A program made the position numbers and the translations under genes. The notes beneath the pieces are model-generated. The model was not told the origin of the DNA. It ran no database searches and was given only the letters and a program-made list of their open reading frames with translations. From contig NZ_AP023287.1 of assembly GCF_014218295.1 (NCBI RefSeq), positions 4,650,001-4,714,000 on the forward strand: a stretch of 64,000 bases of DNA, given 5' to 3'. Shown here one piece after another: positions 46,618 through 49,106 of this stretch. Every line of letters starts with the position of its first letter. Positions within the stretch are counted from its first letter, which is position 1. This DNA comes from Mycolicibacterium litorale (GTDB lineage Bacteria; Actinomycetota; Actinomycetes; Mycobacteriales; Mycobacteriaceae).

Positions 46618-47036
46618 GCTCGTCGTGGATCGTCGTGATCGCCGTCCTGATCGCGGTGTTCGGGGTGGCGTTCGTGGTGGGCCGCCTGGTCAATCTGCGC
46701 GCCGGATTGCTGAAAGCCGAAGCCGCCGCGGCGAACATCGACACCTCCGGACTGGGGCTGTCCGACACCGGGCCGACCGTCCTGCACTTCAGTGCCGTGT
46801 GGTGCGGCCCCTGCGATGCGGTGCGCCGCGTGGTCGACCAGGTGTGCCGGGAACTGCCCGAGGTCTCGCACGTCGAGATCGACCTCGACGCCAATCCGGA
46901 AGCAGCACGGCGGCTTTCGGTGCTCTCGCTGCCGACGACGATCATCTTCGACGCCGAAGGCCATCCGCGCTACCGCACCTCCGGCGTGCCGAAGGTCGCT
47001 GACCTGCGGTCGGTGCTGGAACCGCTGTTGGCTTGA
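46614..47036 (+). CDS. thiX: membrane-anchored thioredoxin-like protein
   Basis: 140 residues. An N-terminal membrane helix (SWIVVIAVLIAVFGVAFVVG) is followed by a thioredoxin domain with redox motif WCGPC (W63-C64 to C67) and the conserved cis-Pro loop SLPTTIIFDAEG. It would handle disulfide exchange near the membrane; topology is unproven. Same place as Rv0816c. ATG 46614 overlaps the lmeA stop in ATGA, so the two are coupled. The poly-Cys leader follows 28 bases later. Confidence 0.88.
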   Translation: MSSSWIVVIAVLIAVFGVAFVVGRLVNLRAGLLKAEAAAANIDTSGLGLSDTGPTVLHFSAVWCGPCDAVRRVVDQVCRELPEVSHVEIDLDANPEAARRLSVLSLPTTIIFDAEGHPRYRTSGVPKVADLRSVLEPLLA

Positions 47037-47052
47037 TCACCCCGTCATTGGG

Positions 47053-47065
47053 TAAGCTGTCGGCG
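47053..47065 (+). promoter_or_regulatory. promoter of the poly-cysteine leader / cysA2 operon
   Basis: TAAGCT at 47053-47058 is followed after 6 bases by GTG 47065, so the leader ORF is leaderless. Confidence 0.7.
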
Positions 47066-47157
47066 TGTCCGCCCGCCTCGAGCTGATGCTCACCAAGCGC
47101 CGCGCAGTCGATCTGTGCCGCGTCGCGGGTTGTTGCTGTTGTTGTTGTAGCTGCTGA
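47065..47157 (+). CDS. poly-cysteine leader peptide (cysteine attenuator ORF)
   Basis: 30 codons. The peptide starts MSARLELMLTKRRAVDLCRV and ends in six consecutive Cys codons, Ser, Cys and stop (47131-47157). In mycobacteria such leaderless poly-Cys ORFs precede the cysA2-sseC operon. Ribosome stalling at the Cys run when charged tRNA-Cys is scarce exposes downstream signals, so it acts as a cysteine-responsive attenuator. Here it is 89 bases upstream of the DUF4395-cysA2-sseC2 unit, the expected target. It is too small to be a normal enzyme. Confidence 0.92.
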   Translation: MSARLELMLTKRRAVDLCRVAGCCCCCCSC

Positions 47158-47246
47158 GCGCTGTCGCGCCGCGACGCGCGCTCGTGCGGAGCAGTCGATT
47201 CGGCCTGTCCGCCATCAGACCATCAACGCAACAGGAGTATCACGCC

Positions 47247-47720
47247 ATGTCGTTCGTCCCGGGGAAGCACACCGACACCGCCCAGGTGGACGTGCGCGGT
47301 CCCCGCTTCGCCGCCTGGCTCACCACCGCCGTGCTGGTGGTGGCGCTGATCGTCTCCGCGGTCAGCGGGACGGCCGCGGCCGTCGTGCTCGGGCTGCAGG
47401 CCGCCGTCTTCGCCGTCGGTGCTATGCGCGGCCCCCGCGCGCACCCGTACGGCATGGTGTTCGGCCGCCTGATCGCTCCCCGGCTCGGCCCGGTGACCGA
47501 GCGCGAGCCCGTCGCTCCGTTGAAGTTCGCCCAGCTCGTCGGCTTCGTCTTCGCCGCCGTCGGTGCGATCGGATTCGCCGCGGCACTGCCCGCGGTCGGT
47601 CTCGTCTCCACCGCGTTCGCTCTGTTCGCGGCGTTCCTCAACGCGGCCTTCGGCATCTGCCTGGGCTGCCGGCTCTACCCGCTCGCCACCCGGTTCCGCC
47701 GGGTGCCCACCTCTGCATGA
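47247..47720 (+). CDS. DUF4395 membrane protein
   Basis: 157 residues, about four membrane segments: LTTAVLVVALIVSAVSGTAAAVVLGLQAAVFAVGA, then LVGFVFAAVGAIGFAAAL and STAFALFAAFLNAAFGICLGCRLYPL. DUF4395 proteins accompany rhodanese/sulfurtransferase genes in actinobacteria and may help sulfur handling at the membrane (inference); the LGCRLYP motif with its Cys is a family feature. AGGAG lies 9 bases before ATG 47247. It ends just before cysA2 and falls under the poly-Cys leader. Confidence 0.85.
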   Translation: MSFVPGKHTDTAQVDVRGPRFAAWLTTAVLVVALIVSAVSGTAAAVVLGLQAAVFAVGAMRGPRAHPYGMVFGRLIAPRLGPVTEREPVAPLKFAQLVGFVFAAVGAIGFAAALPAVGLVSTAFALFAAFLNAAFGICLGCRLYPLATRFRRVPTSA

Positions 47721-47752: not shown

Positions 47753-48586
47753 ATGGCTCGCTCCGACGTCCTGGTCACCACCGACTGGGCCGAGAGCAAT
47801 CTCAACGCGCCGAACACCGTGTTCGTCGAGGTCGACGAGGACACCTCGGCCTACGACACCGGACACATCGAGGGTGCGGTCAAGCTCGACTGGAAGACCG
47901 ACCTGCAGGATCCGGTCCGGCGCGACTTCGTCGATGCCCAGCAGTTCTCCAAGCTGCTGTCCGACCGTGGCATCTCCAACGACGACACCGTGATCCTCTA
48001 CGGCGGCAACAACAACTGGTTCGCCGCCTACGCCTACTGGTACTTCAAGCTCTACGGCCACGAGAACGTCAAGCTGCTCGACGGGGGTCGCAAGAAGTGG
48101 GAGCTCGACGGGCGCCCGCTGTCCAGCGAGCCGGTCAGCCGTCCCGCCACCAGCTACACCGCCAAACAGCCCGACAACAGCATCCGCGCGTTCCGCGACG
48201 AGGTGATCGCCGCGATCGGTCAGAAGAACCTGGTCGACGTGCGCTCCCCCGACGAGTTCTCCGGCAAGATCCTCGCGCCCGCGCACCTGCCGCAGGAGCA
48301 GAGCCAGCGCGCCGGCCACATCCCGACGGCCATCAACGTGCCGTGGAGCAAGGCCGCCAACGAGGACGGCACCTTCAAGTCGGACGAGGATCTCGCCAAG
48401 ATCTACGCCGACGCCGGCCTGGACGGCGAGAAGGAAACCATCGCCTACTGCCGCATCGGGGAGCGCTCGTCGCACACCTGGTTCGTGCTGCAGGAACTGC
48501 TGGGACACAAGAACGTCAAGAACTACGACGGCAGTTGGACCGAATACGGCTCCCTGGTGGGGGCCCCGATCGAGTTGGGAAGTTAG
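47753..48586 (+). CDS. cysA2: thiosulfate sulfurtransferase (rhodanese) CysA2
   Basis: 277 residues, the same length as the M. tuberculosis protein Rv0815c. Two rhodanese domains: the first opens ARSDVLVTTDWAESNLNAPNTV and has VILYGGNNNWFAAYAYWYFKLYGH; the second carries LVDVRSPDEFSGKI and the active-site loop YCRIGERSSHTW with the catalytic Cys. It moves sulfane sulfur, for example from thiosulfate. AAAGGA lies 7 bases before ATG 47753. An ATG at 47717 overlapping the DUF4395 stop would add 12 non-family residues. Confidence 0.94.
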   Translation: MARSDVLVTTDWAESNLNAPNTVFVEVDEDTSAYDTGHIEGAVKLDWKTDLQDPVRRDFVDAQQFSKLLSDRGISNDDTVILYGGNNNWFAAYAYWYFKLYGHENVKLLDGGRKKWELDGRPLSSEPVSRPATSYTAKQPDNSIRAFRDEVIAAIGQKNLVDVRSPDEFSGKILAPAHLPQEQSQRAGHIPTAINVPWSKAANEDGTFKSDEDLAKIYADAGLDGEKETIAYCRIGERSSHTWFVLQELLGHKNVKNYDGSWTEYGSLVGAPIELGS

Positions 48587-48588
48587 TT

Positions 48589-48891
48589 ATGTGCGCTCCT
48601 CCTAAGCAAGGCCTGGCACTGCCCGCCAGCGTCGACCTGGAGAAGGAAACCGTCATCACCGGTCGTGTCGTGGACGGGTCGGGACAGGCCGTCGGCGGCG
48701 CCTTCGTGCGTCTGCTGGACGCCTCCGACGAGTTCACCGCCGAGGTCGTGGCGTCGGCCACCGGTGACTTCCGGTTCTTCGCGGCGCCGGGCACCTGGAC
48801 GCTGCGTGCGCTGTCGAAGATCGGCAACGGCGACGCCACCGTCGCGCCGTCCGGTGCCGGGATTCACGAGGTCGACGTCAAGGTCGCCTGA
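48589..48891 (+). CDS. sseC2: DUF1416 protein SseC
   Basis: 100 residues, as in M. tuberculosis SseC (Rv0814c). It begins MCAPPKQGLALPASVDLEKE and contains TGRVVDGSGQAVGGAFVRLLDASDEFTAEV, a carboxypeptidase-regulatory-like beta-sandwich. Its partner is the CysA2 rhodanese 2 bases upstream. Role in sulfur metabolism is inferred from linkage. The stop lies within the first unit of the 57-bp repeat. Confidence 0.9.
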   Translation: MCAPPKQGLALPASVDLEKETVITGRVVDGSGQAVGGAFVRLLDASDEFTAEVVASATGDFRFFAAPGTWTLRALSKIGNGDATVAPSGAGIHEVDVKVA

Positions 48892-49106
48892 CGACGAAGG
48901 CGGCGAGGGACGAGCCGACGAGGAGTCGGGCAGTCCAACACCGCCTGACGACGAAGGCGGCGAGGGACGAGCCGACGAGAAGTCGGGCAGTCCAACACCG
49001 CCTGACGACGAAGGCGGCGAGGGACGAGCCGACTAGGAGTCGGGCAGGACAACACCGCCTGACGACGAAGGCGGCGAGGGACGAGCCGCCGGAGTCGGAT
49101 CAGTCC
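48886..49106 (+). repeat. 57-bp tandem repeat (about 3.9 copies) directly after sseC2
   Basis: Units begin at 48886, 48943, 49000 and 49057 with exact 57-base spacing; the last is partial and degenerate. They share GACGACGAAGGCGGCGAGG and GTCGGGCAG blocks and differ at few positions (GAGGAG, GAGAAG, TAGGAG). The first copy contains the sseC2 stop codon (TGA 48889-48891). No gene is visible in the region 48892-49256 apart from this and the hairpin. The layout resembles MIRU-VNTR loci. Confidence 0.92.

Follow-up and report, generated by a model that had tools for sequence, protein, structure and literature searches.

A Ms5788A-family cysteine-rich leader ahead of DUF4395-cysA2-sseC in Mycolicibacterium litorale as a probable translational attenuator

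Introduction

How might a 30-codon reading frame that ends in consecutive cysteine codons control the genes behind it, and would it act through the ribosome, the RNA or the peptide? The question is raised by a locus in Mycolicibacterium litorale, which lies within the 64,000-nucleotide stretch of contig NZ_AP023287.1 analysed here (the window). A mycobacterial precedent for cysteine attenuators, which the preliminary description had placed at the cysA2 locus, is confirmed by the retrieved text of PMC4633059 and of papers citing Canestrari et al. 2020. In 2015, ribosome occupancy was shown for the leaderless small ORF of cysA2/Msmeg_5788 and attenuation by cysteine was proposed, with further such small ORFs preceding Rv0485 and nirA (PMC4633059, retrieved in part). 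Canestrari et al. 2020 (Mol Microbiol 114:93) is cited for cysteine-responsive control in M. smegmatis in excerpts of PMC13236596, PMC9094748 and PMC9031893, the first of which uses the term translation attenuation.

Results

Anatomy and family membership of the leader

The leader ORF lies on the forward strand at 47065..47157 and comprises 30 codons and TGA. Its start codon is GTG, and the encoded peptide is MSARLELMLTKRRAVDLCRVAGCCCCCCSC, whose C-terminus reads C-C-C-C-C-C-S-C, with one extra Cys codon at residue 18. The six Cys codons (TGT TGC TGT TGT TGT TGT; 47131..47148, forward strand) form the putative sensing run and the source of a predicted anti-Shine-Dalgarno arm. The conserved peptide part LTKRRAVDLCR is encoded on the same strand by 47089..47121, where the amino acids are kept with some synonymous changes among relatives. 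A putative -10 hexamer of a leaderless promoter, TAAGCT (47053..47058, forward strand), lies six bases ahead of the GTG, and from this spacing it is plausible that the mRNA starts at the leader GTG itself. The ORF is followed by 89 bases and the DUF4395 ATG at 47247. The earlier account of a 30-codon ORF ending in six Cys codons, then Ser and Cys, was exact to the base, and its figure for the gap was measured as claimed.

Behind the leader, on the forward strand, stand the gene of a DUF4395 protein (47247..47720; PF14340, E 6.9e-41), the first of the presumed operon, that of a thiosulfate sulfurtransferase, a CysA2-like rhodanese (47753..48586; PF00581 in two segments; closest chains of known structure, 3aax and 3hwi, at E about 2e-170), and that of a DUF1416 protein (48589..48891; PF07210, E 1.2e-41), which is SseC-like. 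These domain matches agree with the gene order DUF4395-cysA2-sseC2 given in the preliminary description. The gene name cysA2 for the rhodanese follows PMC4633059. Upstream of the leader lie a thioredoxin-type gene and an LmeA gene. A tandem array at 48885-49088 (57-base unit, 3.6 copies, 96% matches) begins at the end of the DUF1416 gene; the 21-base core of its unit has one other occurrence in the genome, with two mismatches.

The leader scored 54.9 bits against NF042933, 'Ms5788A family Cys-rich leader peptide' (cut-off 45, E 4.8e-15), and 41.5 bits against NF042934, the cis_reg_atten 'putative leader peptide' (cut-off 27). It is an already catalogued element, a known device in a further species, and a good but ordinary example. 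With the Ms5788A family (cysA2/Msmeg_5788) it shares the putative leaderless-type start, LTKRRAVDLCR, the C-terminal Cys run, the downstream genes and an above-cut-off score; it differs in species and in having six bases from hexamer to start, whereas most of 80 loci compared have seven. Rfam models gave no match at E<=1 to 46900-47400, and identity with a known Rfam leader or riboswitch was dropped. Within the same 5.63 Mb genome, NF042933 matches one place only at E<=0.01, and the leader peptide finds a single match at E<=10.

Runs of five Cys codons occur in the genome DNA as 11 overlapping matches in 7 distinct tracts, against 17 for a reversed-pattern control. Four forward-strand tracts were checked, and only that of the leader lies in a short ORF (30 codons), the other three standing in frames of 97, 165 and 215 codons or more. 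Since five-Cys-codon runs are not rare as raw DNA, it is conservation across relatives that marks the leader run as not due to chance. A seven-Cys-codon run at 3550640-3550660 lies in a 165-codon frame with no preceding ATG, GTG or TTG and is probably a shadow frame.

Conservation across genomes

NF042933 matched at E<=0.01 in 145 of 148 genus genomes, source genome included, 119 of these above the curated cut-off. All 137 complete, clean genus genomes had such a match, and the three genomes without one are 63-87% complete. A filter on start, length, Cys count, motif and a TANNNT hexamer 5-8 bases before the start, applied to the best 80 among 240 confirmed DUF4395 loci, picked out a similarly built leader in 75; the loci without a leader by this filter are L016, L018, L038, L039 and L078. 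In L018, L038 and L039, which are records of M. gastri, M. simulans and M. asiaticum, DUF4395 stands directly behind the thioredoxin-type gene with no leader visible by eye, and this DUF4395 copy seems to be without the switch. L078 begins at the DUF4395 gene (contig cut). The leader of L016 is decayed, with LTSCCAVEPRC for the RRAVDLCR motif, while start, hexamer and AGGAG are still there, making it a natural case for whether the motif is needed. Rhodococcus records also keep the motif, for example LTSRRTVDLCRLGGCCCRCC. Bins labelled Acidobacteria and Bifidobacterium breve (L045, L075) carry a mycobacterial-type locus and are most likely mislabelled or mixed metagenome bins.

For pairing and masking, 73 of 76 rows were used, window included; L080 was dropped by hand for a doubtful start call, and L045 and L087 failed the filter on the ribosome-binding site (RBS). 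A larger set of 144 distinct leaders was reduced from 191 stretches, namely the window, the 80 loci, 30 genus-search loci (L131-L160) and another 80 places from the genus match list, with some species present twice; an open frame behind the RBS sufficed, whatever its identity. Twenty-one of the 191 failed the filter: the ORF is present in 15 of these, of which 10 have the normal motif and 5 a variant, and no ORF is seen in the available sequence of the other six (L016, L018, L038, L039, L078 and L132).

The Cys run as a predicted RNA arm facing the DUF4395 Shine-Dalgarno sequence

Codon choice within the run is skewed. TGT accounts for 286 of 462 tract Cys codons versus 16 of 153 Cys codons in the accompanying DUF4395 genes (Fisher p 7e-31). 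Across the 144 distinct leaders the tract has 559 TGT versus 344 TGC (62% TGT), and the single motif Cys, that of LCR, is always TGC (144/144). The complement of such codons is found at the next gene: CAACA overlaps the DUF4395 Shine-Dalgarno (SD) sequence, CAACAGGAG occurs once in the window (0.16 expected), and in 104 of the 144 leaders CAACA falls in the interval from SD-12 to the start codon, compared with a mean of 0.5% for other gap segments of equal length. Synonymous codon choice in the Cys run appears to be under selection. Picked examples illustrate the correspondence: where a CGT Arg codon interrupts the run (L082, L083) the RBS arm is ACGA; L055 has the run CTGTTGCTGTT and the RBS arm GACAGCAACAG; and in four of five Mycobacteroides-type loci (L024, L030, L048 and L064, not L033) CAACA flanks the SD on the opposite side.

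RNA folding predicts that run codons 2-5 (UGCU.UUGUUGU, 47134..47145) pair with GCAACAG.AGUA (47228..47239) in a helix, P1, both arms being on the forward strand and the second containing the SD AGGAG at 47233-47237. Nested inside it is a predicted stem, P2 (47150..47192, forward strand), with the consensus GCU.CUG (47150-47156) pairing with CGGAGC (47187-47192); in the window's own best fold it takes the form of CUGC (47151-47154) with GCGG (47186-47189) around an inner hairpin. P2 may explain the Ser-Cys that follows the run. If a mask the size of a ribosome covers the stop codon, pairing of the SD bases with the run is predicted at 0.93-0.95, save for the mismatch-facing G47235.

Pairing between each tract and its own RBS was compared with permuted partners, in tests none of which corrects fully for relatedness: 2 of 5000 permutations were as good for 122 distinct pairs, 31 of 5000 for 73 leaders and 495 of 10000 for 36 tracts, and with one leader per distinct tract (58) the median was 3% (0.5-6.9% over 20 draws). 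In the single-register class (51 of 144), sampled as 15 leaders at a time (the window and 14 random ones), 10 of 12 RBS columns were tract-paired in all 20 consensus-fold samples, and the consensus energy of -13.8 to -26.4 kcal/mol was better in every sample than that of column-shuffled alignments (-0.6 to -8.1). Of ten random sets of 30 leaders taken without regard to register, only three gave P1 in the consensus fold; the likely cause is misalignment arising from unequal run lengths. A consensus fold of ten hand-picked relatives, some of them chosen for good pairing, has both P1 and P2, and in the single-register samples P2 recurs less regularly than P1. With one fixed register, pairing occurs in 88% of cells across 33 distinct leaders, and a register slid by three bases still reaches 84%, as the tract is a triplet repeat. 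Whole-leader stability against shuffled sequences showed no excess (z -0.68 and -0.39) and is therefore not counted as evidence.

Predicted effect of a ribosome on the run

When the first 18 bases of the run were masked, mean predicted SD exposure across the 73 leaders rose from 0.235 to 0.359, compared with 0.238 under control masks. Exposure gained more than 0.1 in 43 of 73 leaders (2 of 73 with control masks) and 0.1 or less in the other 30, and the run mask outdid every control mask in 52 of 73. When a 30-base footprint was moved along the leader, the gain averaged about 0.1 only at positions over the run or directly adjoining the SD.

In this computed masking test the leader from the window itself performs weakly. 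With the segment folded from the tract onward, the run mask leaves SD exposure at 0.29, from 0.30, because a local hairpin forms between the SD and the start; with the whole leader folded, exposure goes from 0.11 to about 0.31, and masks placed 24-60 bases upstream of the run do nearly as well. Folding, which had been proposed earlier as a check for alternative hairpins, thus yielded the predicted tract-SD helix P1 along with an SD-start hairpin under which, in the fold from the tract onward, the run mask brings the SD of this leader no added exposure. Since its own leader behaves weakly under masking, the attenuator model rests on the family and not on the window's single sequence.

A near-constant peptide before the run

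Among 74 distinct leaders the residues L, T, R, R, V, L, C and R of LTxRRxVDLCR are invariant (74/74) and D is present in 73; R, R, V, D and LCR are partly demanded by the leader filters, the leading L and T are not. Without the motif filter, the sole leader-like ORF lacking the motif among the 80 loci is the decayed one of L016. Codons for V vary (GTC 41, GTT 16, GTG 9, GTA 8), as do those for the first R (CGC 48, CGT 18, CGA 8), whereas CTC, CTG and TGC are fixed as bases too in 74/74, so a constraint on the RNA of the motif is also possible. Between motif and run stand three residues, mostly V-A-G (by eye, leaders at 80 loci). Genus leaders with a variant motif and an intact Cys run have D replaced by Q or E (L235, L258, L266), R by C (L242) or V by I (L194), and are natural tests of motif strictness.

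Wider actinobacterial leaders with the same core

NF042934 matched at E<=0.001 in 16 of 197 phylum genomes, five of the 16 in the same genus, and seven f4/g5 genomes have 4 to 11 matches each. A regular expression for the core with an ORF behind it was found at 19 of 26 loci scanned (L164-L189), with 0-5 Cys from the motif on; L175, with zero, is probably a chance match, and L174, with five, is a DUF4395 case with a Cys run. In common with the DUF4395 leader, these NF042934 leaders of Actinobacteria have an RRxVDLxR-type core in a short ORF, but the other members examined carry 1-4 Cys from the motif on and no long run.

The downstream proteins are clearly of sulfur type in 8 of the 15 searched, with several matches in these searches lying below curated cut-offs or falling on cut-off fragments. 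They are of the sulfite/nitrite reductase family (L166, L168, L173, L184), ThiS/MoaD-type (L167, L177, L189) or rhodanese-type (L165); the others are an ABC ATPase that most resembles the aliphatic sulfonate type (L182), an NMT1-type binding protein (L183), an FMN reductase (L188), luciferase-like monooxygenase types (L164, L181), an oxygenase (L172) and a symporter (L186). For the transport and flavin proteins we would guess a role in sulfonate use. L165, from a genome of the same order, has the leader LTKRRAVDLCRVATCLCRSVI followed after 201 bases by the rhodanese-type gene, without an intervening DUF4395.

The source genome itself holds a second Cys leader, L124 (3526029-3526082), which ends in ALVARRHVDFKRVCTCRCMP and precedes a sulfite/nitrite reductase-family gene by 122 bases; against NF042933 it reaches E 1.04, far below the cut-off. 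A weak NF042934 match at 3526029 had been considered as a copy of the DUF4395 leader and is actually this sulfite/nitrite reductase leader. A nirA-type leader of mycobacteria is described in the Fig. 7C legend of PMC4633059 (retrieved in part). L124, the leader of this type in the source genome, has the same type of motif (ARRHVDFKRVCTCRC) as the DUF4395 leader, but its Cys codons are interrupted, in contrast to the uninterrupted run of six. Pattern searches of the genome with the RRxVDL core (77 matches versus 24 for the reversed-pattern control) and with three Cys codons near a stop (122 versus 190 for the control) gave nothing further, the matches being judged in bulk and, in the latter case, from the part that was listed.

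Discussion

The Ms5788A-family leader is, very probably, a ribosome-operated translational attenuator of DUF4395-cysA2-sseC. Its anatomy, family membership, conservation, codon bias and recurring predicted pairing were computed here; for the start site, stalling, cysteine response and operon control we draw on relatives and the literature. The transcript would begin at the leader GTG. With ample cysteinyl-tRNA, ribosomes would pass the Cys run and exit at TGA, and the vacated run would fold onto the DUF4395 ribosome-binding site (UGCU.UUGUUGU with GCAACAG.AGUA), holding translation of DUF4395-cysA2-sseC low; with scarce cysteinyl-tRNA, a ribosome parked on the run and covering it would free the binding site. 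The pairing arm here would be built by a synonymous choice, codon 2 being TGC and codons 3-5 TGT. Canestrari and colleagues reportedly arrived at a similar picture, in which structures that would otherwise hide the ribosome-binding site are prevented by the stalled ribosomes. The preliminary description's proposal that loss of Cys-tRNA opens the downstream genes is supported in the form of unmasking of the DUF4395 ribosome-binding site, given the recurring tract-SD pairing, although in this locus's own leader, folded from the tract onward, masking the run gives no gain in predicted SD exposure.

Transcription attenuation is classical for amino-acid operons, and a stalled ribosome might instead prevent an intrinsic or Rho-dependent terminator from acting in the 89-base gap. 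The retrieved text of PMC4633059 leaves transcription or translation undecided, and a mechanism of the Rho type would be invisible to the sequence methods used. However, a consensus scan of the gap (47158-47246) finds no terminator-like site, and attenuation by an intrinsic terminator was rejected on this ground; the sole terminator-like site (47109-47132; 1 found, 0.2 expected) falls within the leader ORF itself, where the Cys run serves as the T-rich tail, and the pairing that recurs involves the SD. Attenuators of the trpL/leuL type (PMC8079986, retrieved in part, and general knowledge) likewise have a leader peptide rich in the regulated amino acid and a ribosome as sensor, whereas here predicted SD masking is found in place of a terminator-like site in the gap. 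Since the scan shows no such site in the gap, and the tract-SD pairing is predicted again across relatives, freeing of the DUF4395 ribosome-binding site is better supported than a transcription terminator, and we regard attenuation of transcription as unlikely. Far less probable still is an action of the peptide in trans, for instance by binding metal or thiols: the peptide is Cys-rich, and trans roles of small proteins are possible according to the retrieved text of PMC4633059, yet the run ranges from 2 to 8 consecutive Cys and is interrupted by Arg, Ser, Phe or His, and its codons retain complementarity to the RBS despite this variation.

A different division of labour would make the nascent LTxRRxVDLCR an arrest or sensor peptide that, from within the exit tunnel, accounts for most or some of the stalling, the Cys run playing an auxiliary part. 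The motif lies 1-5 residues before the Cys codons and would be located in the upper part of the exit tunnel as the ribosome arrives at those codons; its amino acids are near-invariant despite several codons for V and R, and related leaders with only 1-4 Cys keep the core. Against this, the motif is not absolute (a stricter filter had dropped the five variant leaders), its fixed codons leave room for a constraint on the RNA, and published accounts, as far as their retrieved parts go, attribute control to the Cys codons. We consider such a role for the nascent chain doubtful, though a more serious contender than termination in the gap. The existence of core leaders with only 1-4 Cys means that a model built on long Cys runs alone fails to explain the wider family, and we tentatively put forward, as a minority possibility, that LTxRRxVDLCR is a working nascent-chain motif common to the leaders of several actinobacterial genera, the poly-Cys run being an elaboration of a peptide-assisted sulfur sensor.

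With translational attenuation by the Cys run as the preferred reading, a published cysteine-operated switch is very probably present in one more species. The map added here is that the codons read by the ribosome double as the predicted arm masking the ribosome-binding site of the next gene, and the near-constant peptide before the run poses a question open to a small set of reporter tests.
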